Assembly (NCBI GenBank): GCA_023666835.1
Contig: JAMPBJ010000004.1
Coordinates: forward strand, 1-64,000
DNA length: 64,000 bases
Direction: 5' to 3'
From: Bacteroides sp.
GTDB lineage: Bacteria > Bacteroidota > Bacteroidia > Bacteroidales > Muribaculaceae
Part shown: positions 12,358 to 26,127 of the stretch, in pieces
Numbering within the stretch: position 1 is the first letter of the stretch
How the letters are laid out: the number at the start of each line of letters is the position of its first letter
Translations under genes and position numbers: made by a program
Notes under the pieces: model-generated
The model's input: only the letters and a program-made list of their open reading frames with translations
Databases searched by the model: none
What the model was told of the DNA's origin: nothing

Positions 12358-12472
12358 ATCATTCGGTTTGGTCACGCAAAGATACTCATAATAATTTGAA
12401 ATCATCCCCGATTCGAAACAATTGCATACCGCCGGTTGTATATATTGTAATCCGTTTACCGAAAAAACTAAT

Positions 12473-12504
12473 GTTGAATATTTCGAGGGAATTTATTAAG
12501 TTTG
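12473..12504 (+). promoter_or_regulatory. Promoter of the secreted endonuclease gene
   Basis: GTTG at 12473-12476, 20 bp, then TAAGTTTG at 12497-12504, a good match to TTTG-N20-TAnnTTTG. The ATG is 25 bases downstream. Confidence 0.6.
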
Positions 12505-12529
12505 CAAACTGTTTACTATAATTCATCGC

Positions 12530-14209
12530 ATGAAAACACGTCTACTATATCTCGCCACATGGATGTTGGCTTGCACGGTTTCCGCAATGGCTGAAGCACC
12601 CACAGGCTACTACAATTCATTGGTAGGGAAATCGGAGAGCGACCTCAAAACCGCTGTCTACCAAATCATCAACCCTCACACCCAAGTGTCGAGCTACAAC
12701 AATCTACCATCCTACTTCCGCCAGACCGACGTCCGGCCCGGCACAAGCTACTGGTGGGATATGTACTCCGACATGTCTGTCAACATCAACGGCACATTCG
12801 GCACCTACATGAACCGCGAACACTCGCTGCCCAAAAGCTGGTGGGGCGGCTCGACGACCACCCCGGCGTATGTCGATCTCTACCACCTTTACCCCGCCGA
12901 AGCCAAAGCCAACCAGGCCAAAAGCAACTATCCGCTGGGCGAAATCAAGGCTGGAACGACTCCAACTTTCAATAATGGCGTGTCGATGGTTGGAACAGGC
13001 GTAAATGCGGGCGGCGCAACCTATGTGTATGAACCGGCCAACGAATACAAGGGCGACTTTGCCCGAACATATTTCTACATGGTCACATGCTACCAGTATA
13101 TGAATTGGGTCAAGGACTGGCAAGTTAAAAACGGCATCTACCCCTCTCTTCAGCAATGGTCCATCGACCTGCTGCTAAAATGGCATCGCGCCGACCCCGT
13201 CAGCGAAAAGGAGATCAACCGCAACGAGGCCGTCTACAAGATCCAAAACAACCGCAACCCATTCATCGATGATCCGGATCTGGCTGAATACATTTGGGGC
13301 AACAAAAAAGGTCAGGCCTACAAACTTCCGACGACGGTCGAACCCGGAGGCGATGCCACGCTCTTCACCCCAGTCAACAAAATGACCATCGACTTCGGTG
13401 AAGTGGCCCTTGGCAACTCCATCACTTCGCAACTCATCTTCCGCGGCGAAAACGTTTACGGCACTTTCAGCCTCGGCATCTCGGGCGCCAACAAGTCGCT
13501 GTTCAAGCTCTCGTCTACCACCGTGGTCGGATCCTTGGCCAACAGCACTTCGGGCACCTACGTCACCATTACCTACACTCCAAATGCATTGACTGCCGAA
13601 GGCGCCACACACCAGGCACAAGTCAACATCGAAGACGGCTGCCTCGGGGCCTCAAGCTACCGCGTCTACCTCCTCGGCCAGTGTCTGCCCAAGCCAACTC
13701 TGACACAACTCACCGCCGTCAACCCCACATCGGTTGGTACCGACAGCTATATCGCCCGCTGGGACACTCAGCCGGCCGATGAAGTGGTCGACTACTATGT
13801 TGTTACCGTCAAACGCTACAAAGGCTCCACTGTCACCACCACCGAATACCCTGCCGAAACCGACTCATTGCAGATCGACGGACTCAGCGAAGGGGACTAC
13901 GACACCTACGCCGTGCAGAGCGTACGCCTCGAAGAACGCTCTCCAATGTCCAACTTCATCACCGTCACTCCGGTTGCGGCCATCGAGGACATCATCGCCG
14001 ACCAGCCGTTTGTGGTCGAAACATGCGATGGCTTCATCCGATTCCGCTGCTCCAACACTCAGACCGGAGTGCGCATATACGATCTGGCCGGACGCACCAT
14101 TGCCATCATCCCCGAAGTGACGGACTACATGGAGTATCCCCTACCCTTAGGTGCCTACTTCATAGTGAGCGACGACCACCGGCATCCCATCAAAATTATA
14201 GCCCGCTGA
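12530..14209 (+). CDS. Secreted endonuclease I family nuclease with C-terminal sorting-like domain
   Basis: A 559-residue secreted protein. After a signal peptide (about 1-21) comes an endonuclease I-type domain (about 25-265) with the characteristic NREHSLPKSWW, VDLYHLYPAEAKANQAKSN and NRNPFIDDPDLAEYIWG, i.e. the histidine and asparagine metal-site motifs of this non-specific nuclease family. Two beta-sandwich regions follow, the second fibronectin-like (about 385-490). The C-terminus (GVRIYDLAGRTIAII ... LGAYFI) resembles a type IX secretion sorting domain. It probably degrades extracellular DNA or RNA at the cell surface. It has its own promoter and terminator. Confidence 0.85.
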   Translation: MKTRLLYLATWMLACTVSAMAEAPTGYYNSLVGKSESDLKTAVYQIINPHTQVSSYNNLPSYFRQTDVRPGTSYWWDMYSDMSVNINGTFGTYMNREHSLPKSWWGGSTTTPAYVDLYHLYPAEAKANQAKSNYPLGEIKAGTTPTFNNGVSMVGTGVNAGGATYVYEPANEYKGDFARTYFYMVTCYQYMNWVKDWQVKNGIYPSLQQWSIDLLLKWHRADPVSEKEINRNEAVYKIQNNRNPFIDDPDLAEYIWGNKKGQAYKLPTTVEPGGDATLFTPVNKMTIDFGEVALGNSITSQLIFRGENVYGTFSLGISGANKSLFKLSSTTVVGSLANSTSGTYVTITYTPNALTAEGATHQAQVNIEDGCLGASSYRVYLLGQCLPKPTLTQLTAVNPTSVGTDSYIARWDTQPADEVVDYYVVTVKRYKGSTVTTTEYPAETDSLQIDGLSEGDYDTYAVQSVRLEERSPMSNFITVTPVAAIEDIIADQPFVVETCDGFIRFRCSNTQTGVRIYDLAGRTIAIIPEVTDYMEYPLPLGAYFIVSDDHRHPIKIIAR

Positions 14210-14304: not shown

Positions 14305-14407
14305 CGATCCGTCCACTACCCCAAAAACCTGGGCATCTCCTGTCATTTTGAAAGAATTATGTTGAAAAACATATCTTTTACGACACATTTATTAGAATAA
14401 TTATTAC

Positions 14408-14415
14408 TACCTTTG
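14408..14415 (+). promoter_or_regulatory. -7 element of the Lrp/AsnC gene
   Basis: TACCTTTG matches TAnnTTTG 45 bases before the start codon. The -33 region is not convincing. Confidence 0.5.
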
Positions 14416-14459
14416 CAGTCCAATTCAATCTAATTACTATTTGTCACTCAATTACTCTT

Positions 14460-14918
14460 ATGGGAAAAATCGATAATCTCGACAAAAAAATATTGGGTAT
14501 TGTGATGAACAACGCCAGAATACCCTCGAAAGATGTCGCTGCCGAATGTGGTGTCTCAAGAGCCGCCATACACCAGCGTCTGCAGCGCATGATGGACCTC
14601 GGTGTCATCACCGGTTCAAGCTACAATGTCAACCCCAAGTCGCTGGGCTATCGCACCTGCACATTCATTGGCGTCAATCTCGACCGCGGTGCAATGTATC
14701 GCGATGTAGTCCCCGAGCTTGAAAAGATCCCGGAAATTGTGGAGTGCCACTTCACCACAGGTCCCTATACAATGCTGATCAAACTTTTTGCCCGCGACAA
14801 TGAACACCTGATGGACCTTCTCAACAACAAGATCCAGAACATCAACGGTGTCAGTGGAACCGAAACTCTCATCTCCCTCGACCACTCCATACACCGCAAA
14901 ATTCCTATCGATCAGTAA
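14460..14918 (+). CDS. Lrp/AsnC-family transcriptional regulator
   Basis: A 152-residue regulator. The N-terminal AsnC-type helix-turn-helix covers about 5-60 (LDKKILGIVMNNARIPSKDV, then CGVSRAAIHQRLQRM), and a C-terminal RAM ligand-binding domain follows (about 65-145), including VECHFTTGPYTMLIKLFARD. Such proteins usually form dimers to octamers and respond to amino acids. The target genes cannot be told from here. It has its own promoter and converges on the ECF sigma factor gene. Confidence 0.92.
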   Translation: MGKIDNLDKKILGIVMNNARIPSKDVAAECGVSRAAIHQRLQRMMDLGVITGSSYNVNPKSLGYRTCTFIGVNLDRGAMYRDVVPELEKIPEIVECHFTTGPYTMLIKLFARDNEHLMDLLNNKIQNINGVSGTETLISLDHSIHRKIPIDQ

Positions 14919-14943
14919 TCGCCGATCACATGACATAAAATAG

Positions 14944-14978
14944 TCGGCCGCTCGCTGTATCCCACAGCAGGCGGCCGA
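14944..14978. terminator. Bidirectional terminator between Lrp/AsnC and sigma factor genes
   Basis: TCGGCCGC at 14944-14951 pairs perfectly with GCGGCCGA at 14971-14978, with a further inner GCTGT/ACAGC pairing. It lies between two convergent genes with A/T-rich flanks on both sides. Confidence 0.7.
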
Positions 14979-15036
14979 TATGATTTCTATAGTAATTATT
15001 ATGTTATGTTCTTGGTTGTGAGGGAGGTGACATGTG

Positions 15037-15540
15037 TCAGCAATAGTCGGCAAATCGACGCTGCAACTGCTGGCGAGCATTGAATATGCGACTCTTGACG
15101 GTGCCTACCGGCAGACTCATCGCATCGGCTATTTCATCGTATTTGTAGCCTTGCACATGCATGGTGAACGGTTTGCGGTAAGCTTCCTGTATTTCATTGA
15201 TGGCTGCCGTGATCTCATGGGTGGTGTAAGCGCCCTCCGGAGTGTCAAGGCCACTGTCTTGTGAAAGATTCAGATGATAGTAGTCTTCTGTCCGATCGAT
15301 AACTGTCGATGCCACGATTGCTTTACGGTAATTGTTGATGAATATATTACGCATGATGGTGAACACCCATCCTTTGAAATTGGAATTGTCAACATACTTT
15401 TCGCGGTTGTCGAGAGCCTTTACGGTGGTGTCTTGAAGCAGGTCGAATGCATCATCGCGGTTTGAGGTCAGCATATATGCAAAATTCAGCATATTGGATT
15501 GGAGGCTCATAAGTCGGTTGGTAAAAGCAGCAGATTCCAT
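15037..15540 (-). CDS. ECF-type RNA polymerase sigma factor
   Basis: A 167-residue sigma-70 family factor of the ECF group. Region 2 includes LNFAYMLTSNRDDAFDLLQD then NFKGWVFTIMRNIFINNYRK (core binding and -10 recognition). Region 4 at about 105-160 includes KPFTMHVQGYKYDEIADAMS and GTVKSRIFNARQQL. No anti-sigma gene is adjacent, so it is probably an autonomous factor of the kind common in Bacteroidota. Promoter directly upstream. Confidence 0.93.
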   Translation of the reverse strand: MESAAFTNRLMSLQSNMLNFAYMLTSNRDDAFDLLQDTTVKALDNREKYVDNSNFKGWVFTIMRNIFINNYRKAIVASTVIDRTEDYYHLNLSQDSGLDTPEGAYTTHEITAAINEIQEAYRKPFTMHVQGYKYDEIADAMSLPVGTVKSRIFNARQQLQRRFADYC

Positions 15541-15584
15541 ATAGATAATGCGTTAGAGATTATGAATTATGTTGGTTGACATTG

Positions 15585-15617
15585 CAAATGTAGAAAGAAT
15601 AATACGAACCAAACAAA
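15585..15617 (-). promoter_or_regulatory. Promoter of the ECF sigma factor gene
   Basis: On the minus strand TTTG (15614-15617), 21 bp, then TACATTTG (15585-15592), a full match to the Bacteroidota consensus, about 45 bases before the start codon. Confidence 0.65.
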
Positions 15618-15847
15618 TCTTATGTTAAACAGTGTTAAAATCGTTACACCATTGTTACAGCATTTGTGATACATCTGATTATCAATGTATTTCGACACAC
15701 TTAAAAAACGAACAATTTTGCAACTTTGATTGTATTTTCTTTTCCCATATTTTTGAGTCTGCAGTCAAGCAACTTTTTGTGTCGAAGAATGTTGTATGAT
15801 TCAGAAAGCATCATGGGCGGCAATTTAATATTTTTTTAAGAAAAATA

Positions 15848-15879
15848 TGTGATTAGCCACAAAGAATGCATTACCTTTG
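15848..15879 (+). promoter_or_regulatory. Promoter of the FKBP cluster
   Basis: TGTG at 15848-15851, 20 bp, then TACCTTTG at 15872-15879; the first FKBP start is 29 bases downstream. The rest of the 368-base gap 15541-15908 holds the divergent sigma factor promoter and A/T-rich sequence with no gene seen. Confidence 0.6.
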
Positions 15880-15908
15880 TAGATGTCTAACAATATTATA
15901 ACCGAATT

Positions 15909-16535
15909 ATGGAAAACAAGGAACTTGATAGAATAAGCTACGCTCTCGGACTGAGCATGGGCAACAATTTCCGCAGCAGCGGCATAGAGAAACTCGATAT
16001 CAAAGATTTTGCCGACGGTGTTGCCGCCGTATTCTCCGGCGAGACCCCCAAGATGACCTACAACGAAGCCAAAGCCGAAATCCAGAAATTCTTCACCGAG
16101 ATGGAAGAACGTCAGCGCAAGGAAGCCGAAGCCATGGGCAAGGTCAACAAAGAAGCCGGCGAAGCATTCCTCAAAGAAAACGGCGGTCGCGAAGGCGTAA
16201 AGACCACCGCTACAGGTCTGCAGTATGAGGTGATCGAAGAAGGCACAGGCGCATCGCCCAAGCCCGGTGATGATGTGACCGTTCACTACACCGGCACGCT
16301 GATCGACGGCACAGTGTTTGACAGCTCAGTAGAGCGAGGCGCACCCGCCACATTCGGCGTCACTCAGGTGATCCCCGGATGGGTCGAAGCTCTTCAGATG
16401 ATGAAGGAAGGCGCAAAATGGCGTCTGTTCATTCCCTCGCAGCTCGCCTACGGTCCCAACGGTGCCGGCGGTGTGATCGGCCCGAATGCCACTCTGATTT
16501 TCGATGTTGAACTCCTCAAGGTCAACAGCAAATAA
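15909..16535 (+). CDS. FKBP-type peptidyl-prolyl isomerase, cytoplasmic
   Basis: A 208-residue FKBP of the FklB/FkpA type. The N-terminal helical dimerisation domain (about 1-95) is followed by an FKBP domain (about 100-206). Key active-site positions are all present: HYTG, VFDSS, VIPGW with the pocket tryptophan, and LAYG, ending LIFDVELL. It accelerates proline isomerisation during protein folding. There is no signal peptide, so unlike its neighbours it acts in the cytoplasm. It is the first gene of an array of six FKBP paralogues and has the promoter. Confidence 0.95.
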   Translation: MENKELDRISYALGLSMGNNFRSSGIEKLDIKDFADGVAAVFSGETPKMTYNEAKAEIQKFFTEMEERQRKEAEAMGKVNKEAGEAFLKENGGREGVKTTATGLQYEVIEEGTGASPKPGDDVTVHYTGTLIDGTVFDSSVERGAPATFGVTQVIPGWVEALQMMKEGAKWRLFIPSQLAYGPNGAGGVIGPNATLIFDVELLKVNSK

Positions 16536-16586
16536 TCATTGGCATTTTTGTCGCACCATACAATACAAAACAACGATACGAAAAAA

Positions 16587-17453
16587 ATGATCCGTCGCTG
16601 TCTATTTATAATAATGTGTATGGCCGTCTGCTCAACCGCTTTCGGCCGAGGCTATGAACTGACCCGTCAGGAACGCGACTCCGTGGCCACGGCTCTCGCT
16701 ACAATTTGGGGCGAATATGTCGTGAAAAAGGCCCATAAAGACGGCCCCGATGTCAGTGCAGAATATATGCGCGGACTCGAAGAAGCCCTCAACCTGGCGT
16801 CGAACAACGATGCCTACCTTCAGGGTCTGATGGAAGGCGGCATGATAGCACAACGCCTGCAGCAGGTTGAAAACGTGGGAGGTTTCAAAGTGGACATGGC
16901 TCGCTTCATCACCATACTCAAACGTGCTGAAAAAGGCCGTCGCACCGGCTTCACCCACAAAACGGCTGAAGATTATCTCAACCGCGTGATGACAAAAATC
17001 AGCGAGGACACAAAGGTGGTGGACAACTCCGCAGCTTTCCTCGAAGCCAAATCCAAAGAAGAGGGCATCATCAAGACACCGTCGGGACTGCTTTTTGAAG
17101 TGATCACCGAGGGCGAAGGCGATCAGCCGCTGATGACCGACGAAGTGCTTGTCAACTATGTGGGCACTCTCATCGATGGCCGCGAATTTAACCGCTCCGA
17201 CGAAAGCTCCGGCGCCGCTTTCAAAATCAAGGACCTCATCCCCGGTTTTGCCGAAGGACTCACCATGATGAAACGCGGAGGCACCTATCGCCTTTACATC
17301 CCTGCCGAGATCGGTTACGGCCCGGAAGGCGTGGTCGGTCTGATACCCGGTGGAGCTGCCACGATATTCGACGTTCAGATGATCGACTTCCGCCACCTTG
17401 ATGCCGACGGCAATGTCATTTCGCCTGAAGAGACTCCGGCTTCAGCCGAATGA
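16587..17453 (+). CDS. Exported FKBP-type prolyl isomerase
   Basis: A 288-residue paralogue with a signal peptide (MIRRCLFIIMCMAVCSTAFG). I chose 16587 because it starts the signal peptide; an in-frame ATG 16 codons upstream is not preceded by a family sequence. N-terminal FKBP_N-like helical region about 25-170, FKBP domain about 185-275. The usual active-site FD pair reads FN (REFNRSDES) and the pocket tryptophan is phenylalanine (LIPGF), so activity may be altered. It ends with an acidic tail. Probably periplasmic; 51 bases after the first FKBP. Confidence 0.9.
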   Translation: MIRRCLFIIMCMAVCSTAFGRGYELTRQERDSVATALATIWGEYVVKKAHKDGPDVSAEYMRGLEEALNLASNNDAYLQGLMEGGMIAQRLQQVENVGGFKVDMARFITILKRAEKGRRTGFTHKTAEDYLNRVMTKISEDTKVVDNSAAFLEAKSKEEGIIKTPSGLLFEVITEGEGDQPLMTDEVLVNYVGTLIDGREFNRSDESSGAAFKIKDLIPGFAEGLTMMKRGGTYRLYIPAEIGYGPEGVVGLIPGGAATIFDVQMIDFRHLDADGNVISPEETPASAE

Positions 17454-17478
17454 TCCGTACTGACTAATGAATTGAAAT

Positions 17479-17506
17479 CAAACAAACAAACAAACAAACA
17501 AACAAA
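17479..17506 (+). repeat. (CAAA)7 simple repeat in a leader
   Basis: Seven perfect CAAA units followed by TAAA, located 20 bases before the ATG at 17527. Tetranucleotide tracts in leaders can change length by slipped-strand replication and alter expression; whether this one does is not known. Confidence 0.85.
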
Positions 17507-17526
17507 TAAACACTTAACACAACACA

Positions 17527-18459
17527 ATGAAAAAATTACTTTTGATCGGTAGCGTTGCTCTGCTTGCTATCGGATTTTCAGCTTGTAAAGGAAAAGGCAC
17601 CGGCAACGGCCCCAAAACCTACGGCGACTCCCTTTCTTATTATATGGGTCAGGCTTCAGGCTACGGATTGCTCAACAACCTCAACAACATGCCCGAAGAT
17701 ATGCGCGACAAAGTCAACAAAGACGACTTCCTTATCGGCTTGAAGACCGTACTCGACGCCGACACATCTCGTCAGGACTATCTCCAGGGTCTCGCTTATG
17801 GCCTTCAGCTGTGCAACCAGCTTCTGGAAATGGAAAAAGCCGGCGTTAATTTCGACCGCGAAGTGTTCTTCAAAGAATTCAAAGCCTCTTTCCTTGCCGA
17901 CACCGTAAGCACCGACCAAATGATGCTCCTTAACGAAAAGCTTCAGCCTCTGATGGAACGCGCCTATAACGAAATGATGAAAGCCCGCGTCAAAGAGCAG
18001 GAAGCCTATCAGAAAGCTCTTCAGGAAAAATACGACAAGAACAAAGCCGAAGGCGATAAGTTTGTTGCCGAAGCCATGACGAAAGACAAAGATCTTAAAA
18101 AGACCGAATCGGGTCTCGTCTACAAAGTGACCAAACTCGGCACCGGTGAAGTGGCCAAAGACACCGACAGAGTCAACGTGGTCTACAAAGGCACCAAAAT
18201 CAACGGTGAAGAATTCGATTCGTCAAACGGTCAGGAAGTGGCATTCTCGCCCCGCGGCGTTGTGAAAGGCTTCGGCGAAGCTCTCACCACATTCCCCGCC
18301 GGTTCGCAGGTGACACTCTATATTCCTGCCGAACTCGGCTACGGCAAGCAGGCTCAGGGCAAAATCCAGCCGGGTGAAACCCTCGTATTCGACATCACCA
18401 TCGGCGATGTTGTTAAGCCCCAGGCTCCCGCAGCTCCGGCCGACACCGTAAAGAAATAA
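17527..18459 (+). CDS. FKBP-type prolyl isomerase lipoprotein
   Basis: A 310-residue lipoprotein: signal with box IGFSAC, lipid cysteine at residue 20. N-terminal helical FKBP_N-like domain about 30-185 with a charged, lysine/glutamate-rich helix, then an FKBP domain about 195-300 with VVYKG, EEFDSS, VVKGF and LGYG. The pocket tryptophan is phenylalanine. It probably folds proteins in the periplasm while anchored to a membrane. The short proline/alanine tail ends DTVKK. Its leader holds the CAAA repeat. Confidence 0.92.
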   Translation: MKKLLLIGSVALLAIGFSACKGKGTGNGPKTYGDSLSYYMGQASGYGLLNNLNNMPEDMRDKVNKDDFLIGLKTVLDADTSRQDYLQGLAYGLQLCNQLLEMEKAGVNFDREVFFKEFKASFLADTVSTDQMMLLNEKLQPLMERAYNEMMKARVKEQEAYQKALQEKYDKNKAEGDKFVAEAMTKDKDLKKTESGLVYKVTKLGTGEVAKDTDRVNVVYKGTKINGEEFDSSNGQEVAFSPRGVVKGFGEALTTFPAGSQVTLYIPAELGYGKQAQGKIQPGETLVFDITIGDVVKPQAPAAPADTVKK

Positions 18460-18532
18460 TTGTTTGAAAACCATAACTTGGTGCTACGGCCGAAATCTTT
18501 TGGTCGTGGCACTGAGTGTAATATGTGTTCCT

Positions 18533-19246
18533 ATGAACGGCTCAGCTTCATCATCAGTCAAAAAGCCTCGTCTGGTGTTTCTCACCGGTGCAGGGGTCAG
18601 TGCCGAAAGCGGCATCTCCACGTTTCGCGACAGCGGTGGCCTGTGGGACAAATATCCAGTGATGGACGTGGCAAGCGCCGACGGGTTTGCCCGCAATCCG
18701 GCACTTGTGCATCAGTTCTACAATACGCGTCGTCGCGAACTGCTCGGCGTTGAACCCAACCAGGCTCATCGCGACATCGCATTTCTGCAGCGATGGTATG
18801 ACGTCAGCGTGATTACACAAAACGTTGACAATCTACACGAACGTGCCGGAAGCTCCGATGTGCTCCATCTTCACGGCGAACTGATGAAAGTAAGATCAAT
18901 CCCCCACCCGGAGCGAATCTATGAACTGACACCCGACAATCTCGACACCGACATCGACAGTCGCGACAGCTACGGCGATCCCATCCGTCCACACATCGTT
19001 TTCTTCCAGGAGGCAGTGCCCAACATCGAACCGGCAGCCGAAATTGTCAGCGAGGCCGATGTGCTGGTCATCATAGGGACTTCGATGGCCGTCTATCCGG
19101 CTGCAGGATTGGTCTACTACGCACGTCGCGGGGTGCCCGTCTACTACATCGACCCCAATCCGGCTCCGGTGCCCGACGGCATCACCGTGATCAAGGCCAC
19201 CGCCACCGAAGGCATGAAACAACTTTTGAAAATACTCGTGAAATGA
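18533..19246 (+). CDS. Sir2-family NAD-dependent protein deacylase, zinc-ligand-free
   Basis: A 237-residue class III-like sirtuin, which removes acyl groups from lysines using NAD. Seen: NAD-binding GAGVSAESGI (19-28), TQNVDNLH (95-102), catalytic H114 in HLHGE, and the SIRT5/CobB-type acyl pocket Y63 and R66 in FYNTRRR, suggesting desuccinylase-type ability. The four cysteines that bind zinc in CobB are absent. The start at 18533 is chosen because upstream in-frame starts are TTG only. No signal, so cytoplasmic. Its stop overlaps the next FKBP start (ATGA) in the middle of the FKBP array. Confidence 0.88.
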   Translation: MNGSASSSVKKPRLVFLTGAGVSAESGISTFRDSGGLWDKYPVMDVASADGFARNPALVHQFYNTRRRELLGVEPNQAHRDIAFLQRWYDVSVITQNVDNLHERAGSSDVLHLHGELMKVRSIPHPERIYELTPDNLDTDIDSRDSYGDPIRPHIVFFQEAVPNIEPAAEIVSEADVLVIIGTSMAVYPAAGLVYYARRGVPVYYIDPNPAPVPDGITVIKATATEGMKQLLKILVK

Positions 19247-20118
19247 AAAAATTACTCATAGCGGTCGTAGCCGCCATAGCATGCTCACCATTGGCAGGCG
19301 CACAGAATCCAGATGCCGACTCCCTCGGCTACTATATCGGAGCAACGCAAGGAGCCATGTTCAACCACATGATAGCGTCCGAACAGCCCCAGGCCAATCA
19401 GGAAGCATATAAAAAAGAATTTCTCGACGGACTGGCATCAACACTGCTCGCCGACACTTCGCGTGCGGCCTTTCGTCGCGGCCAGACTGTAGGTTTGAAC
19501 ATAATCGACGAACTCGGCAAAATGAACGTTGCCGGACAGACGGCCAATCTTCAGAAGCTCTACGATGCTTTCGCCCAACTCCTTGGACAAAGCGACGTCA
19601 CCGAACAGCAATATCGGGTTTTCTACGAAAACCTTGCCCGGCTCATGGAGCCAACCCGCACCTACTATCAGCAGCAGCAGGATGCGCGTCGCGCCGAGGC
19701 CGAACGCGCTCAGCGTGAAAGCGTGGAGACCAACATAAAGGCCGGCGACGAATTCATGGCTCGGTTGAAAGCCAACAACAAAAACATCGTGACCACTCCC
19801 TCAGGCCTCGTTTATGAAGTCAACAAAAAGGGAACCGGCCCTACACTTGCCGAAGGACAAGACGCAATGGTGCGCTACACCGGACGTCTGGTCGATGGCA
19901 CACAATTCGACTCTTCGGGCGACAAAGCAATTCGATTCAACCCCAACCAGGTGATCAAGGGCTTCGGCGAAGGTCTGCGACTGATGAACAAGGGCTCGAA
20001 ATACACTTTCTACATTCCCTATCAGCTGGCCTACGGCATGCAGGGTCCTCCCGCAATCGGCCCGGCTCAGACACTCATTTTCGAAGTGGAATGCGTCGAT
20101 ATCCTGCCTGAAAAATAA
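19243..20118 (+). CDS. Exported FKBP-type prolyl isomerase
   Basis: A 291-residue paralogue with a cleavable signal peptide (about 1-20, ending LAGAQ). Helical FKBP_N-like domain about 25-170 including a glutamine-rich helix (TYYQQQQDARR), then an FKBP domain about 185-288 with VRYTG, TQFDSS, VIKGF and LAYG. Most active-site residues are kept except the pocket tryptophan (phenylalanine). Probably periplasmic. The start overlaps the sirtuin stop by 4 bases, implying coupled translation. Confidence 0.92.
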   Translation: MKKLLIAVVAAIACSPLAGAQNPDADSLGYYIGATQGAMFNHMIASEQPQANQEAYKKEFLDGLASTLLADTSRAAFRRGQTVGLNIIDELGKMNVAGQTANLQKLYDAFAQLLGQSDVTEQQYRVFYENLARLMEPTRTYYQQQQDARRAEAERAQRESVETNIKAGDEFMARLKANNKNIVTTPSGLVYEVNKKGTGPTLAEGQDAMVRYTGRLVDGTQFDSSGDKAIRFNPNQVIKGFGEGLRLMNKGSKYTFYIPYQLAYGMQGPPAIGPAQTLIFEVECVDILPEK

Positions 20119-20153
20119 TACTCGAAACAATAATAAACAATCAATAAACTGAC

Positions 20154-21044
20154 ATGAAAACAAAAGTTCTTTTGGCCGGATTATTTCTGGCTGCCGTGTC
20201 GCTCACTTCGTGCAAGGGCGGCGCAAAAGGTGCTGACGCACCCGAACCCAAAACATTCGAGGACTCGGTTGCCATGCTTCAAGGCATCGCATTCGGATCC
20301 GACATGCTTGCCACTTATCAGCAACTTCCCGATTCGGTGAAGGCCAAATTCGACCGCGATAAATTCCTCGCAGGTATCAAACTGATCCTCGATGCCGACA
20401 CAACCGAAGCTTATCAGTCGGGCATTCAGATCGGCCTTAATCTCCTCAATGCTATGCAACAGGGTCGCGTGGCTGGCGTTGACCTCGACCCTAATATGCT
20501 CTACAGCTACTTTGCCGAAACATTTATGGCCGACTCCGTAGATTCTAAAAAGATTGACGGTATGAGGGACAGATTCGAACCGATCATGACCAGATATCAG
20601 GACAAACTTCAGACTTATGCCTACGAATCGCAGATCCGCTATCAGGCTCAGATGCAGAAGATGTTTGACAAGAACGTGGCTGAAGGCACAAAATTCATGG
20701 CCGACCTCAAAGCCAAGGATCCCGAGGTTAAAACCACTGCATCAGGTCTTAGCTATAAAGTTACCAAAATGGGCACAGGCGAAGTGGCTAAAGAAGGTGA
20801 AGTGCCCGTGATCTACACCGGCAAATTTATTGACGGCACCGTGTTCGACTCGAGCAACAACGAAGTGGTTCCGTTTGCTATCGACGGCGTTGTTCCCGGC
20901 TTCAAAGAAGCTCTCACCACCTTCCCCGCAGGCACTCAAGTCACTCTCTATGTACCCTACGATCTTGGCTACGGTGCCAACGGCAGCAGCGTCGTTCAAC
21001 CCGGTCAGACCATGATTTTCGACATGGAGATCTGCGAGAAATAA
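20154..21044 (+). CDS. FKBP-type prolyl isomerase lipoprotein
   Basis: A 296-residue lipoprotein with box SLTSC and lipid cysteine at residue 20. It is close in layout to the lipoprotein at 17527-18459: helical domain about 30-185, then FKBP domain about 195-296 with VIYTG, TVFDSS, VVPGF, and LGYG. The shared stretch EALTTFPAGTQVTLYVP suggests recent duplication between the two. Presumed periplasm-facing folding factor. 35 bases after the preceding FKBP. Confidence 0.92.
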   Translation: MKTKVLLAGLFLAAVSLTSCKGGAKGADAPEPKTFEDSVAMLQGIAFGSDMLATYQQLPDSVKAKFDRDKFLAGIKLILDADTTEAYQSGIQIGLNLLNAMQQGRVAGVDLDPNMLYSYFAETFMADSVDSKKIDGMRDRFEPIMTRYQDKLQTYAYESQIRYQAQMQKMFDKNVAEGTKFMADLKAKDPEVKTTASGLSYKVTKMGTGEVAKEGEVPVIYTGKFIDGTVFDSSNNEVVPFAIDGVVPGFKEALTTFPAGTQVTLYVPYDLGYGANGSSVVQPGQTMIFDMEICEK

Positions 21045-21053
21045 CGAACCGAT

Positions 21054-21974
21054 ATGTCTAAAAGACTATACCGCATATGCTTGACAGCAGCCATGGGCCC
21101 CGTGCTCGTGGCTCTGTCTGCTTGTGGCAGCAGTGGATCGGCCGACGGCGCCGACTCCACCATCGTTGCCACTACATTTGCCGACTCCATTTCCGAGGCC
21201 CTTGGCAATCAGTGGGGTTGCATGCAAAACATCGACTTCCTCTCGCTTGCCGACTACAAGGGCACACGCATTGATGTCGACGACTTCATGGAAGGACTGG
21301 CCGCCCATCTGCGCACCGACATCAACACCGCATCAAAATCCGAAGGCATTGCCAAGGCTTCTGATGTGGCTGCGCAAGTCGACAGCTACGCCGCTGTAGG
21401 CGTTTATCTTTCGCCCGCTAAGGTGGGAGAGGCCATGAAGACGCAACTGATGGCCGACACGCTGACCCGGCAACAGGCCGACGAAATGCAATTTGAATTT
21501 GACCAAAAAATGTCGGTGGTGCAGAATCTGATTCTCGAACGCATGCGCAACGAGCGCCGCCAAGAGATGATACGCGACAACAAATTGCGAAAAGCCAACA
21601 CCGAAGCAGGTCGAAATTTTCTCGAAGAGAAGATGAAAACCGATCCTGAGATCAAGCGCTCCGCATCTGGTCTCGCCTACAAGATCACCGATCCGGGCAC
21701 CGGCGAAAAGATTCCCTCCGGCTCCACCGTTCAGATAGTCTACAGCATGAAAGCTCCCGATGGCCATATCATTGATTCATCACGCAATCAAATAATCGAC
21801 GTGCCACTCGACGACAACATGATCGCCGGCCTGCGCGAAGGCATCGATCTGCTGAGTCTCGGAGGCGAAGGCGTGCTTTACGTGCCTGCTTCACTGGGAT
21901 TTCAACGCGAAGTCGATGGCGTGCAACCGGGTCAGCTCATCATCATCGAACTACAAATCAAAGGATCCAAATGA
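21054..21974 (+). CDS. Degenerate FKBP-like lipoprotein
   Basis: A 306-residue lipoprotein (box ALSAC, lipid cysteine 24). The helical N-terminal domain is kept (about 40-200) but the FKBP domain (about 210-303) has lost most active-site residues: the FD pair reads IID, the VIxxW region reads MIAGL, and the LAYG tyrosine is phenylalanine (LGFQ). It therefore probably lacks isomerase activity and may act as a chaperone or binding partner. Gap of only 9 bases from the previous gene and 4-base overlap with the next. Confidence 0.85.
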   Translation: MSKRLYRICLTAAMGPVLVALSACGSSGSADGADSTIVATTFADSISEALGNQWGCMQNIDFLSLADYKGTRIDVDDFMEGLAAHLRTDINTASKSEGIAKASDVAAQVDSYAAVGVYLSPAKVGEAMKTQLMADTLTRQQADEMQFEFDQKMSVVQNLILERMRNERRQEMIRDNKLRKANTEAGRNFLEEKMKTDPEIKRSASGLAYKITDPGTGEKIPSGSTVQIVYSMKAPDGHIIDSSRNQIIDVPLDDNMIAGLREGIDLLSLGGEGVLYVPASLGFQREVDGVQPGQLIIIELQIKGSK

Positions 21975-22462
21975 AAGCAATAATTCCAATTTTGGCCGCA
22001 GTCATTCTGACTTGCATGCTTCCCAGTTGTAAAAACGGATCGTCGAGCTCCGACGCTGCCGACTCGACTTCTGTCGACGTCAAAATTGACAGCGTGGTCG
22101 ATTCTGCACAGGCCGACACCCTGGCTATGCTTCTTGGCACCCTGGTGGCCAACGATGTTCTGCTCGAGAAAAACCTGAATGATTCGGCACGTGCCGAATT
22201 CGACGCTGCCCAATACGCCGAAGGTGTCGCCATCGCACTGAGCGACAAGAACAAATCAGCTTCATACACATATGGCGTACAGGCTGCCCGCGACCTTCGT
22301 CGACGCGTCGATGAACTTCGCCAATATGGTGTCGACGTCAATATCGATCTTCTGATTCAGGCCATCCGCCAAAATCTTCAGGCCGACAGCATATCGGAAG
22401 CAGACCTCGAACGAGCTAACACTGTCTACAACAACTTGCTTCAACACGTCTACTCCGATTGA
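21971..22462 (+). CDS. Lipoprotein resembling the FKBP N-terminal domain only
   Basis: A 163-residue lipoprotein with box MLPSC and lipid cysteine at residue 20, then a serine/aspartate-rich linker. The remainder matches in pattern the helical N-terminal domain of the preceding FKBPs (YAEGVAIALSDKNKSASYTY, then VNIDLLIQAIRQNLQADSIS) and stops before any prolyl-isomerase domain. It may be a dimerisation partner for the FKBP lipoproteins or a remnant. It overlaps the previous stop by 4 bases and ends the array. Confidence 0.8.
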   Translation: MKAIIPILAAVILTCMLPSCKNGSSSSDAADSTSVDVKIDSVVDSAQADTLAMLLGTLVANDVLLEKNLNDSARAEFDAAQYAEGVAIALSDKNKSASYTYGVQAARDLRRRVDELRQYGVDVNIDLLIQAIRQNLQADSISEADLERANTVYNNLLQHVYSD

Positions 22463-22513
22463 TCAACGTCATTTACACGACGATCAACAATACGGACTTT
22501 CATCATCATACGA

Positions 22514-22539
22514 GGCTCTGCACCTGGCAGAGCCTTTTT
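22514..22539 (+). terminator. Rho-independent terminator of the FKBP array
   Basis: GGCTCTGC at 22514-22521 pairs perfectly with GCAGAGCC at 22527-22534 around a 5-base loop, followed by TTTTT: a textbook intrinsic terminator that separates the FKBP array from the dcw cluster. Confidence 0.9.
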
Positions 22540-22651
22540 CATATCCGTCCCTCCAAATTTACAAATGCAAATATCAACGCGTGGTATTTCAACGCCATTA
22601 CGTCACTAAAAATCAACGCCTTGTCATAGTGTTAATAACTTCCGGCTAAAT

Positions 22652-22679
22652 TTTGTCAAAAAATCACAGTTTAAATTTG
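22652..22679 (+). promoter_or_regulatory. Candidate promoter of the dcw cluster
   Basis: TTTG at 22652-22655 and TAAATTTG at 22672-22679 resemble the -33/-7 pair, but the spacing is 16 rather than about 20. The region 22540-22753 contains no mraZ-like ORF. Confidence 0.4.
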
Positions 22680-22753
22680 TAAACTTTATGTAAATTTCCG
22701 TAACTTTACATCGGTATAAAGCGTCCTTGCACAAAAACAATAAACCATTGGTT

Positions 22754-23668
22754 ATGAACGAAATGCCCGTCTACCACATACCTGCTCTGCTTCCTCAGTC
22801 GCTTGAAGCACTCGACATTCAGCCAGGCGGAGTGTATGTCGATGCCACTTATGGCGGCGGCGGACACTCAAAAGCGATTGTGGAAAAGCTTTCCGAGCAA
22901 GGGCACCTTTATTCGTTCGACCAGGACGATGAAGCGGTCGAAAGAGCCATTTCCGACCCGCGGTTTACGATTGTGTACGGCAACTTCCGATATCTGAAAA
23001 ATTTTCTCCGCTACTATGACGTCAACAGCGTTGATGGCATACTTGCCGACCTCGGCGTGTCGTTTCACCACTTCGACGATTCCAACCGCGGTTTCAGTTT
23101 CAGATTCGATGGAGCCCTCGACATGCGCATGAACCGCCACGCCACAGCATCGGCAGCCGACATTCTCAACGAATACGACGAACAGCGGCTGGCCGATATC
23201 TTCACACTCTACGGCGAACTCAAGCAGGGACGCCGAATGGCTGCCGAAATCGTCCGTCTGCGTCAGCAGGGAAAACCGGTCGACACCGTGAGCGCCCTGA
23301 CTTCCGCCCTGGCAAAATTCATCTCGCCCAACCGCGAGAAAAAAGAACTCGCAATGCTCTTCCAGGCTCTGCGCATCGAGGTTAACCACGAAATGGATGC
23401 CCTCGAGCAGTTTCTCAAACAAAGCGTCGAAGTGCTCCGACCCGGCGGCCGTCTGGCCATCATCACCTACCACTCGCTTGAAGATCGTCTTGTCAAAAAC
23501 TTCATGCGCAGCGGCAACTTCACCGGCCACGTCGAAAGCGACCTGTTTGGTAACGTTCGCACCCCACTCAAGCAACTCACGTCAAAACCGATCGTCCCCA
23601 CCGACGAGGAAATCGAAAGAAATCCCCGGTCGCGTTCAGCAAAACTCAGAGTCGCCACAAAACTTTAA
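22754..23668 (+). CDS. rsmH: 16S rRNA (cytosine-N4)-methyltransferase RsmH
   Basis: A 304-residue SAM-dependent methyltransferase (MraW) that methylates C1402 of 16S rRNA. The SAM motif VDATYGGGGHSKAI is near 25-38, and LADLGVSFHHFDDSNRGFSF near 99-118 is characteristic. C-terminal KPIVPTDEEIERNPRSRSAKLR is family-typical. Start at 22754 chosen because the family begins with a short segment before YHIPALLPQS. It is the first gene of the dcw cluster here; mraZ, which normally precedes it, is absent. Confidence 0.96.
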   Translation: MNEMPVYHIPALLPQSLEALDIQPGGVYVDATYGGGGHSKAIVEKLSEQGHLYSFDQDDEAVERAISDPRFTIVYGNFRYLKNFLRYYDVNSVDGILADLGVSFHHFDDSNRGFSFRFDGALDMRMNRHATASAADILNEYDEQRLADIFTLYGELKQGRRMAAEIVRLRQQGKPVDTVSALTSALAKFISPNREKKELAMLFQALRIEVNHEMDALEQFLKQSVEVLRPGGRLAIITYHSLEDRLVKNFMRSGNFTGHVESDLFGNVRTPLKQLTSKPIVPTDEEIERNPRSRSAKLRVATKL

Positions 23669-23686
23669 CCCAAACATTCGACCATC

Positions 23687-24061
23687 ATGACCTCGACAAG
23701 AAATAAAAGCAACACCGCTGCAAAGACGGAGAATTCATCAAACATTCTCCGCCAGGTGATGTTTGGCAAAATAGTGTCGAGCGACTTCTTCGCCCGCAAC
23801 TGGGTGGCCATGCTGATAATCGTGTCGATGATTCTGGCCTACACCGCCGGAAAATACACATGCCAGACCAAAATGGAGCAAGTGCGCCGACTGACATCCG
23901 AACTCGAGATCGTCAGAGCCGAACGCATCCGCGCCAAAAGCGAATATATGGGCAAAGTCCGTGAATCTGCCATGCAGAAAATGGTCGACGAACTCAACCT
24001 CGGCCTGACCGTGCAGGAATTCCCGCCCTATGTGATCAACGAACAGGAGGAAAAGAAATGA
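23687..24061 (+). CDS. ftsL: FtsL-like cell division protein
   Basis: A 124-residue bitopic membrane protein: a cytoplasmic head of about 40 residues, one membrane segment near 41-60 (WVAMLIIVSMILAYTAGKY), then a periplasmic coiled coil. It matches FtsL of Bacteroidota in size, layout and position between rsmH and ftsI, which is the main support since sequence is poorly conserved. It acts with FtsQ and FtsB in the divisome. Its stop overlaps the ftsI start by 4 bases. Confidence 0.8.
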   Translation: MTSTRNKSNTAAKTENSSNILRQVMFGKIVSSDFFARNWVAMLIIVSMILAYTAGKYTCQTKMEQVRRLTSELEIVRAERIRAKSEYMGKVRESAMQKMVDELNLGLTVQEFPPYVINEQEEKK

Positions 24062-26127
24062 AAAGAGAAAACCGCAAAAACATTCTTTTCCGCTACGGCC
24101 TGATCATATCCGCGATCATATTGCTGTCCATAGTCATCATCTATCGCCTGATGGACAACACCATGTTTTCGGCCGACAAGTGGAATGCCAACGCTGAAAA
24201 GACCCTCTCCAAGCTCGACACCATCATGCCGGTGCGAGGCGACATCCTCGGATGCGATGGCACTGTGCTGGCCACAAACATGATCATCTACACCCCGATG
24301 ATCGATTTTCGCGTGCCGAAATTCAACGAAAAGCTCTATCGCGATAGCCTCAACCGCCTGTGCGACAGCATGGCCAAGCATTTCCCGGTGCGCGACAGTG
24401 ATGGTTGGAAAGAATACCTGTCGAAACCGCTTGCCAAAAAGAAAGAAAATCGGCCACGTGCCTTCCCCGTACTCCGAAAAATTTCATACGACGACAGTCA
24501 ACTGCTGAAAACGTTCCCCTTCTTCAACCAAAAGAAACGCTATTCGGGACTCCACATCGACAGCGAACTGGCTCGTGTGCGCCCCTATGGCGAGATGGCA
24601 CGTCGCAGTATCGGTGCCGTTGGCGAAACCGACGACGACCGTCGTCGCCGTGGCATCTACGGCCTTGAAAAGTCGCTTGACTCCCTGCTTGCAGGCACTC
24701 CGGGCATTTCAAAGAAAGTGCGCCTGACCAATGCAATTGTCGACTGGGCCGACCGCGAGCCCATCGATGGCTACGACGTGATGACCACCATCGACATCAA
24801 GATGCAGGACATCGTGGAAAACGAGCTCAACAAAGTGCTCGAAGTATGCAAAGCCGATTGGGGCACAGCAATCATGATGGAGGTGGGGACCGGCGACATC
24901 AAAGCAATAGCCAATCTCGAATACGACATAAAACGAGGCTACTACATCGAAAGCCAGGACTACGCCGTCAACCGCTACGAACCAGGGTCAGTGGTCAAAA
25001 CTCTCTCGCTGATGATAGCAATGGAAGATGGTCGCGCACCGTCGCTCGACAAGGTGTACACCACCGGCGGATCATTCAAGATCAGCGGATTTTCAACATC
25101 TGATTGCTCCAAGAGCGACACACTGTCGCTGCGTCGCGCCCTCGAGATATCTTCGAACATCGTGATGTCGAAAATGATTCTCGAAGCCTACGGCGATGAT
25201 CCGGGCCGCTTCTACAGCCGCATTCGTCGCTCAGGATTCCTTGACCGCTTCAACACCGGCATTGCCGGTGAAGTGCCGCCGCGCATCGATTCGCTTGCCA
25301 AAACCAACAAGCTTTCGCTCACGCGCCAGAGCTTCGGCTACGGCACAGAAATATCTCCCCTCTACACCTGTGCGCTCTACAATGCCATAGCCGGCGGAGG
25401 CCGCTTTGTGCGCCCGCGTCTTGTCAAAGGTCTGCGAGGCAACGGCGTCGACACTATATTCGACGTCAGCTACGTGCGCGACCGCATATGCTCCGAAGAG
25501 ACTGCCCGCGAACTCCGCGACATGCTCCACCGGGTGGTGTGGGGTCCGCGCGGCACTGCCCGCTCAGTGCTCAAGAGCGACAAAGTGGAGATTGCCGGCA
25601 AGACCGGCACCGCCAACATTATCGTTGACAAGAAATATGCCAAAGGCGTCAACCGACTTGCATTCTGCGGGTTCTTCCCATACGACAATCCACGCTACAC
25701 ATGCATGGTGCTGATATCATATCCCAAAGAGACATGGATCAGCCCGGCCACAACCAGCGGACGTGTAGTGAAAAACATTGCAGAGGCAATGTATGCCCGC
25801 GGCATGCTGGGCAACAATTCCGACTTCCGCTCCGCCGGATCGAAAGTGGGCGACCACCCGACCTACTACGGTTCGAACGACGACCGCATGAAGAAAGCCA
25901 ACAAAACCATCGGTGCACCTACGATGGCCACTCTCTCCAAGCCCCACCGGGTGAAATCCGGTGTGCCTGATGTGGTTGGCCTCGGCCTTCGCGAAGCCAT
26001 CAGAGACCTCGAGTCGGCCGGCTACAACGTCAGCTTCACCGGCACCGGATACGTGTCGGGCCAACTTCCCACCGCAGGTACGCCCTCAAAACCGGGCACC
26101 ACGGTCAACCTTGTGCTTCGCGAATAA
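24058..26127 (+). CDS. ftsI: Division transpeptidase FtsI (PBP3) with PASTA domain
   Basis: A 689-residue class B penicillin-binding protein that crosslinks septal peptidoglycan. N-terminal membrane segment about 11-30, dimerisation domain, then transpeptidase domain with SxxK serine S311 (PGSVVK), SSN at 365-367 and KTG at 515-517. A PASTA domain occupies about 630-689 (VPDVVGLGLREAI), usual for Bacteroidota and Firmicutes but not for E. coli FtsI. Position after ftsL supports division rather than elongation. Confidence 0.96.
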   Translation: MKRENRKNILFRYGLIISAIILLSIVIIYRLMDNTMFSADKWNANAEKTLSKLDTIMPVRGDILGCDGTVLATNMIIYTPMIDFRVPKFNEKLYRDSLNRLCDSMAKHFPVRDSDGWKEYLSKPLAKKKENRPRAFPVLRKISYDDSQLLKTFPFFNQKKRYSGLHIDSELARVRPYGEMARRSIGAVGETDDDRRRRGIYGLEKSLDSLLAGTPGISKKVRLTNAIVDWADREPIDGYDVMTTIDIKMQDIVENELNKVLEVCKADWGTAIMMEVGTGDIKAIANLEYDIKRGYYIESQDYAVNRYEPGSVVKTLSLMIAMEDGRAPSLDKVYTTGGSFKISGFSTSDCSKSDTLSLRRALEISSNIVMSKMILEAYGDDPGRFYSRIRRSGFLDRFNTGIAGEVPPRIDSLAKTNKLSLTRQSFGYGTEISPLYTCALYNAIAGGGRFVRPRLVKGLRGNGVDTIFDVSYVRDRICSEETARELRDMLHRVVWGPRGTARSVLKSDKVEIAGKTGTANIIVDKKYAKGVNRLAFCGFFPYDNPRYTCMVLISYPKETWISPATTSGRVVKNIAEAMYARGMLGNNSDFRSAGSKVGDHPTYYGSNDDRMKKANKTIGAPTMATLSKPHRVKSGVPDVVGLGLREAIRDLESAGYNVSFTGTGYVSGQLPTAGTPSKPGTTVNLVLRE

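Follow-up and report, generated by a model that had tools for sequence, protein, structure and literature searches.

The window analysed here, a stretch of 64,000 nucleotides of Bacteroides sp. (GenBank assembly GCA_023666835.1, contig JAMPBJ010000004.1, positions 1 to 64,000, forward strand), carries an array of plus-strand genes encoding FKBP-type proteins, which we designate A to G and which are arranged in the 5' to 3' order A, B, C, sirtuin, D, E, F, G. The array opens with A (15909..16535), a cytoplasmic FklB/Mip-type FKBP with a single N-domain and no signal sequence (FKBP_N 89 bits, FKBP_C 110 bits). The next five FKBP-type genes, B to F, encode exported proteins with an N-N-C architecture, i.e., two N-units followed by one C-domain: B (16587..17453) is a secreted FKBP altered at one scored isomerase site residue (D37 to N), C (17527..18459) a lipoprotein and D (19243..20118) a probably secreted protein, both with all scored site residues intact, E (20154..21044) another lipoprotein with an intact set, and F (21054..21974) a lipoprotein with a degenerate isomerase site (FKBP_C 32.8 bits). 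A SIR2-family sirtuin gene (18533..19246 from its ATG; PF02146, 139 bits, E = 1.8e-40) is placed between C and D. The array ends with G (21971..22462), a lipoprotein with two N-units (FKBP_N 21.1 bits), for which no FKBP_C domain was reported in the Pfam scan. The first-pass annotation of this DNA described six consecutive FKBP paralogues; six FKBP_C genes are indeed present, but they are not consecutive, as the sirtuin gene lies between the third and the fourth. Its description of G as a lipoprotein related to the N-domain only agrees with the match to FKBP_N alone.

A search of the genome (1.79 Mb, 11 contigs, 79% complete) with the FKBP_C profile at E <= 0.001 returned six matches, all located within the array, while the FKBP_N profile at E <= 1 returned seven, the seventh being G. 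Proteins A to F all score above the curated Pfam cut-offs for both FKBP_C (110 to 32.8 bits against 21.1) and FKBP_N (89 to 32.6 bits against 22), and G falls slightly below the latter. In the case of B, the family searches were run from position 16590 and the start was taken as the ATG at 16587, not the TTG at 16539. In two relatives, another locus encodes an additional FKBP whose 131 residues leave no room for an N-domain; its absence from the genome of the window may simply reflect the incompleteness of the latter.

Typical sirtuins carry a zinc site. In the sirtuin of the array this site is probably absent, because no cysteine is found from the ATG at 18533 onwards and 13 of the 15 listed sirtuins are wholly devoid of cysteine; as for the remaining two, the sirtuin of locus L141 has one cysteine, and both cysteines of the window's frame precede this ATG.

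The doubled N-terminal domain of B to G is not mentioned in the first-pass annotation. In C, hhalign aligns two successive stretches, of 52 and 65 residues, with the N-domain of A (95.8% and 93.8%, respectively) and with one another at a probability of 95.4%, whereas six control stretches from the same proteins gave 0.1–25.4%; neither this result nor its controls depend on the counting of units by models. The unit models were built from the same homologues in which the units were counted, so that the within-family counts are not independent; with this restriction, they detect two N-units in all six window proteins B to G (in G at residues 46–93, 14.8 bits, and 98–158, 42.1 bits) and one in A. 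Among the other FKBP-bearing non-A proteins of the loci compared, 119 of 132 have two units, 10 have one and three have four. The A-type proteins never possess two (0 of 80; one unit in 50, none in 30), and in proteins sampled at the level of the order two units occur in 4 of 32, one in 11 and none in 17. For Escherichia coli, one unit was counted in FkpA and none in FklB or SlyD. To judge from these profile comparisons, the N-domain is tandemly duplicated in B to F (N-N-C), and G consists of N-N alone. Among solved structures, the family profile matched FkpA best (1q6u, 1q6h), followed by two wheat FKBP entries and then by Mip-type proteins. With a G-based profile, FkpA and Mip-type chains made up seven of the ten listed matches; the other three were weaker, namely 9his_I (E 0.003, involving the signal-bearing first 59 positions), 9i5t_h (0.16) and 7mbz_E (0.65).

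The first-pass assignment of one cytoplasmic, two exported and three lipoprotein FKBPs is in line with our data: A has no signal, B and D look secreted, and C, E and F carry a lipobox. It was also suggested that these forms would serve different compartments; this is supported, as for C to G the presence or absence of the lipobox follows gene position in relatives (C 4/4, E 2/2, F 3/3, G 3/3, D 0/4). The situation of B is less clear, as its relatives are unflagged in L021 and L026, have over-long reading frames in L014 and L037, and a further B-group protein, from L019, is flagged as a lipoprotein. D holds an ambiguous 'AIAC' motif that was taken as a lipobox by the regular expression. All four D orthologues examined are without that cysteine, and D is, therefore, better called secreted.

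As for the orientation of the lipoproteins, surface exposure of SusG requires acidic residues after the lipid cysteine, according to PMC6222051. None occurs within six residues of this cysteine in C, E, F or G (in C the residues that follow are KGKGTG), while a SusD-like start of the same genome, the one readable of two matches, has two. Since acidic residues are absent from the former and present in the latter, C, E, F and G probably face the periplasm, an orientation rule that comes from other Bacteroidota. Across the family, the regular expression selected 53 proteins as lipoproteins (among the window proteins it included D but overlooked F and G); 3 of the 53 have two acidic residues, and one of these three is the L014 orthologue of G.

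We scored ten positions which we take to be the FKBP12-type isomerase site (FKBP12 numbering); they were mapped by motif, with the allowed letters set by us and with A outside the table. All ten are kept in C, D and E, nine in B and four in F. Among 141 proteins, 79 have ten acceptable residues, 102 deviate at one position at most, and 11 show four or more deviations. In L014 and in L037, one array member has six site changes and another one nine. An N-only gene is present in 7 of the 65 complete arrays sampled irrespective of size, two of the seven (L091, L098) being near-copies. Between L014 and L037, dN/dS (computed with our own script) amounts to 0.117 and 0.110 in the two degenerate genes and to 0.158 in G, where a contig end limits the comparison to 103 codons; the values of A to D are 0.065–0.089 and that of the sirtuin is 0.048. 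For two N-only pairs from elsewhere we obtained 0.099 and 0.092, and for a neighbouring full-length FKBP 0.102. With values of 0.09–0.16, purifying selection acts on degenerate as well as N-only genes in relatives, where selection keeps them. The worn or missing enzyme part of F and G suggests that the cell benefits from holding alone.

In the trees, the N-only proteins fall in three clusters and the N-only state requires three changes (the bootstrap range is also 3), so that loss of the catalytic domain may have occurred repeatedly. A single N-only clade is not rejected by the AU test (p = 0.348 with all 8 rows, 0.179 with 7 rows), for which reason we claim neither one origin nor several. The larger tree comprised 100 of 141 rows that passed the filters, and the smaller one 48 rows including 8 of the 10 N-only proteins, after removal of two near-duplicates; the N-only matches of L099 and L128, which are truncated at contig ends, did not enter the trees.

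To place the array among its relatives, we used the best 80 of 537 confirmed stretches, found through their similarity to A and labelled mostly as Muribaculaceae, Porphyromonadaceae, Bacteroidales or Bacteroides, with a few odd labels and with the last three outside the family. Together with the window and L014, L021 and L037, which were added by hand as known to be large, the census covers 84 arrays (L069 and L070, from one MAG, are counted separately), 16 of which lack a complete 3' end and were not counted further. In the 68 complete ones, the number of FKBP-type genes, N-only genes included, is one (1 array), two (29), three (28), four (5), five (2) or seven (3). The arrays of seven are that of the window plus two of those added by hand, L021 (G033) and L014 (G018), and the largest of the other 65 arrays has five; L037 (G022) resembles L014 but runs off its contig. 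The window, L021 and L014 share the layout of A, two FKBP genes, sirtuin, three FKBP genes and an N-only gene. At the place of E, however, L014 has a gene that by the tree is not an E orthologue and that has lost 9 of the 10 site residues, so the order of catalytic and degenerate members varies. In the trees, each of B, D, E, F and G clusters with its counterparts from other species, and the group of C is weak. The first-pass annotation had proposed a comparison of array size in related genomes, and this comparison finds the array conserved in relatives. Elsewhere in the order, outside the family, 6 of 20 loci (L043, L045, L046, L048, L049 and L051) have an A-like gene with one or two more FKBP genes next to it; an Lrp gene is nearby in four of the six and a sirtuin in three. 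Such small clusters indicate that the array arose mostly by lineage-specific expansion from an older set of two or three genes.

The gaps between the genes are small, in array order 51, 73, 73, -4, 35, 9 and -4 bases (the sirtuin gene and D, like F and G, overlap by 4 bases), and are followed by 264 bases to rsmH. A copy of TAnnTTTG, which we take to be the Bacteroidota-type promoter motif, is located on the plus strand at 15872..15879 and starts 37 bases 5' of the ATG of A; with a second copy further upstream, there are two 5' of A. On the plus strand of region 14400–24100 the motif occurs eight times against an average of 1.4 in mononucleotide shuffles; four copies fall inside array reading frames and none in the gaps between array genes. 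Downstream of G, a plus-strand hairpin of 10 pairs followed by a T run (22512..22536) resembles an intrinsic terminator. The terminator that had been placed at 22514–22539 has, thus, a counterpart in this hairpin, the best of nine found, but as many (9.8) are expected in shuffles of the region. The small gaps, the TAnnTTTG copies lying 5' of A and in no gap, and the terminator-like site after G make it plausible that the array forms one transcription unit, as previously suggested. A sigma-70-type match at the end of A (16507–16536) counts mildly against a single transcript; it comes from a scan with a model not made for this phylum, which gave 20 sites against 8.5 expected. The divergent neighbour of A on the minus strand (15037..15540) encodes an ECF sigma factor (Pfam Sigma70_r2/r4_2) and is a possible regulator of the array. 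Of 35 loci compared at the family level, some of them stopping close to A, 5 have an ECF sigma factor gene next to A.

Among the closest known systems are Mip-type chaperones. According to PMC4114562, Mip-like proteins are V-shaped dimers joined via their N-domains. For FKBP22 of Shewanella, PMC3179164 describes the isolated N-domain as a dimer with no foldase activity, which binds reduced alpha-lactalbumin with a KD of 3.4 uM, comparable to the 2.2 uM of the whole protein, while the C-domain alone shows no such binding. The same text describes the engineered NNC-FKBP22, a monomer whose peptide activity is comparable to that of the parent, but which binds substrate 6.5-fold more weakly and is a poor protein foldase. 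With its tandem N-domain before one C-domain, NNC-FKBP22 is organized as B to F; yet, it is man-made and contains a flexible linker, whereas B to F are natural, common in related loci, arranged in paralogue arrays and partly lipidated. A to F also share the order FKBP_N then FKBP_C (PF01346 and PF00254) with E. coli FkpA and FklB (FKBP22) and with Mip, from which B to F differ in having two N-units per chain, F in its degenerate site and G in having no FKBP_C.

We consider it moderately probable that, beside the cytoplasmic A and the sirtuin, the array encodes in the exported proteins B to G an expanded periplasmic, mostly outer membrane-tethered set of single-chain holdases and isomerases, with catalytic members towards the 5' end and holdase-only members at the 3' end. 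In this model, A, the sirtuin and the Mip/FkpA-derived B to G are probably expressed from one transcript; B and D would be secreted, and C, E, F and G probably tethered to the outer membrane on its periplasmic face. By analogy with the engineered protein, the two N copies probably pack together into an intramolecular pseudo-dimer, giving a monomeric N-N-C chain. In B, C, D and E, N-N would hold unfolded clients while the C-domain isomerises their prolines, and F and G would act as holdases only or as partners of other members, the likely clients being proteins bound for the outer membrane. Given the weaker binding of NNC-FKBP22, the N-N-C form is not obviously a better chaperone; we speculate that this may be offset by having a number of these proteins anchored together at the outer membrane. 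The genome also encodes parvulin-type (SurA/PpiD-like) proteins, with three matches in two reading frames, and OmpH/Skp-family proteins, with four matches, so the array is not the sole folding aid. The earlier proposal of a dedicated envelope folding system is weakened by these genes and by the mostly lineage-specific nature of the expansion.

A simpler reading would be gene dosage, in which the array consists of tandem duplicates of one envelope FKBP that raise the level of a single activity and share out no tasks. The single architecture common to B to F would suit it, as would the variation in array size (one to five FKBP-type genes in the 65 complete arrays sampled irrespective of size). 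However, we regard it as unlikely, because B, D, E, F and G cluster by type and not by species, the lipidation of C to G follows position, and the non-isomerase members are under selection in relatives. That F and G are decaying duplicates on their way to becoming pseudogenes appears very improbable: the frames, lipoboxes and position are retained in L021 and L014, dN/dS is 0.110–0.158 for the degenerate genes and G between L014 and L037, and N-only genes recur in complete arrays not picked for size, which weighs against what decay would explain, namely the loss of 6 of the 10 scored site residues in F and the rapid change of G, which at 40% identity to its L021 counterpart has diverged more than any other gene of the array (46–91%).

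The exported FKBPs could also be the isomerases of the Bacteroidota BAM complex, of the BamJ/BamK type. PMC12578637 describes BamJ and BamK, from the same phylum as the array, as peptidyl-prolyl isomerase lipoproteins, and the NCBIfam BamJ model (NF053689) scores A at 117.4 bits, above its cut-off of 100, and B to F at 22.7–93.7 bits, below it, with no match to G reported. Yet, A, the sole protein above the cut-off, has no signal sequence, which likely makes this score a source of misnaming. According to the same paper, BamH to BamK bear an acidic surface-export signal and BamJ and BamK lie outside the cell in the complex, whereas C, E, F and G are without this signal; moreover, B to F show the Mip/FkpA domain order with the N part doubled. 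On these grounds, membership in BamJ/BamK was rejected, and we find this reading improbable. Similarly doubtful is the possibility that the N-N proteins are assembly partners, with G and F forming mixed oligomers with C, D and E via their N-units and setting the number of catalytic arms instead of holding clients alone. The N-domain is the dimerisation domain of Mip-like proteins (PMC4114562), and G has the same units and closes the same gene run; on the other hand, the doubled units may satisfy their own interface.

Returning to the periplasmic holdase/isomerase set, we tentatively extend it to an evolutionary proposal, which we hold with clear reserve: single-chain Mip dimers (N-N-C) may have arisen naturally in Muribaculaceae and in turn given rise to N-N lipoproteins free of the isomerase; a single operon would then encode a graded, outer membrane-tethered team ranging from isomerase-holdases to pure holdases, with N-N as a self-standing, ATP-independent periplasmic holdase. 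Among the open-licence papers listed by our searches, those on FKBP and Muribaculaceae being judged by title and opening of the abstract, we found no description of N-N as such a holdase, and the listings for FKBP paralogues or operons in Bacteroidetes and for the tandem N-domain fusion contained none of such arrays. The split between holding and prolyl isomerisation in Mip-type chaperones has so far been studied via engineered fragments and fusions. Evolution appears to have made the same cuts and fusions, with active N-N-C, worn N-N-C and N-N alone in one gene run of a bacterium from the gut, and these natural proteins make the need for the isomerase directly testable. If the lipoproteins do face the periplasm, the array would complement the isomerases exposed at the surface in the Bacteroidota BAM complex, described only recently, with a folding set in the periplasm.

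The FKBP array of the window encloses a sirtuin gene (18533-19246) whose product contains no cysteine, counted from the ATG onwards; as 13 of the 15 sirtuins listed are cysteine-free over their whole length, the protein is probably of the zinc-free type. In the related locus L068, the gene immediately 3' of the sirtuin (12469-13005) encodes an N-only protein, i.e., an FKBP_N-type helical domain without the FKBP_C isomerase domain, and occupies the position held in the window by the FKBP gene D; perhaps it represents an independent loss of the isomerase domain. We found that relatives possess a second group of N-only lipoproteins with a C-terminal stretch of its own, the members of which close two- or three-gene arrays (L075:11609-12151, L091:12215-12769, L098:10472-11026, L121:12081-12620, L127:12354-12887 and L136:11615-12175).

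As for gene A (15909-16535), it encodes a cytoplasmic FKBP without a signal, despite scoring 117.4 bits, above the cut-off of 100, with the NCBIfam model of BamJ, an isomerase lipoprotein of the Bacteroidota BAM complex. The match of this model to a signal-less protein is likely a trap for annotation. A divergent ECF sigma factor gene (15037-15540) adjoins the array, and an ECF sigma factor gene neighbors A in 5 of the 35 family-level loci read; the array may be regulated by this adjoining factor.
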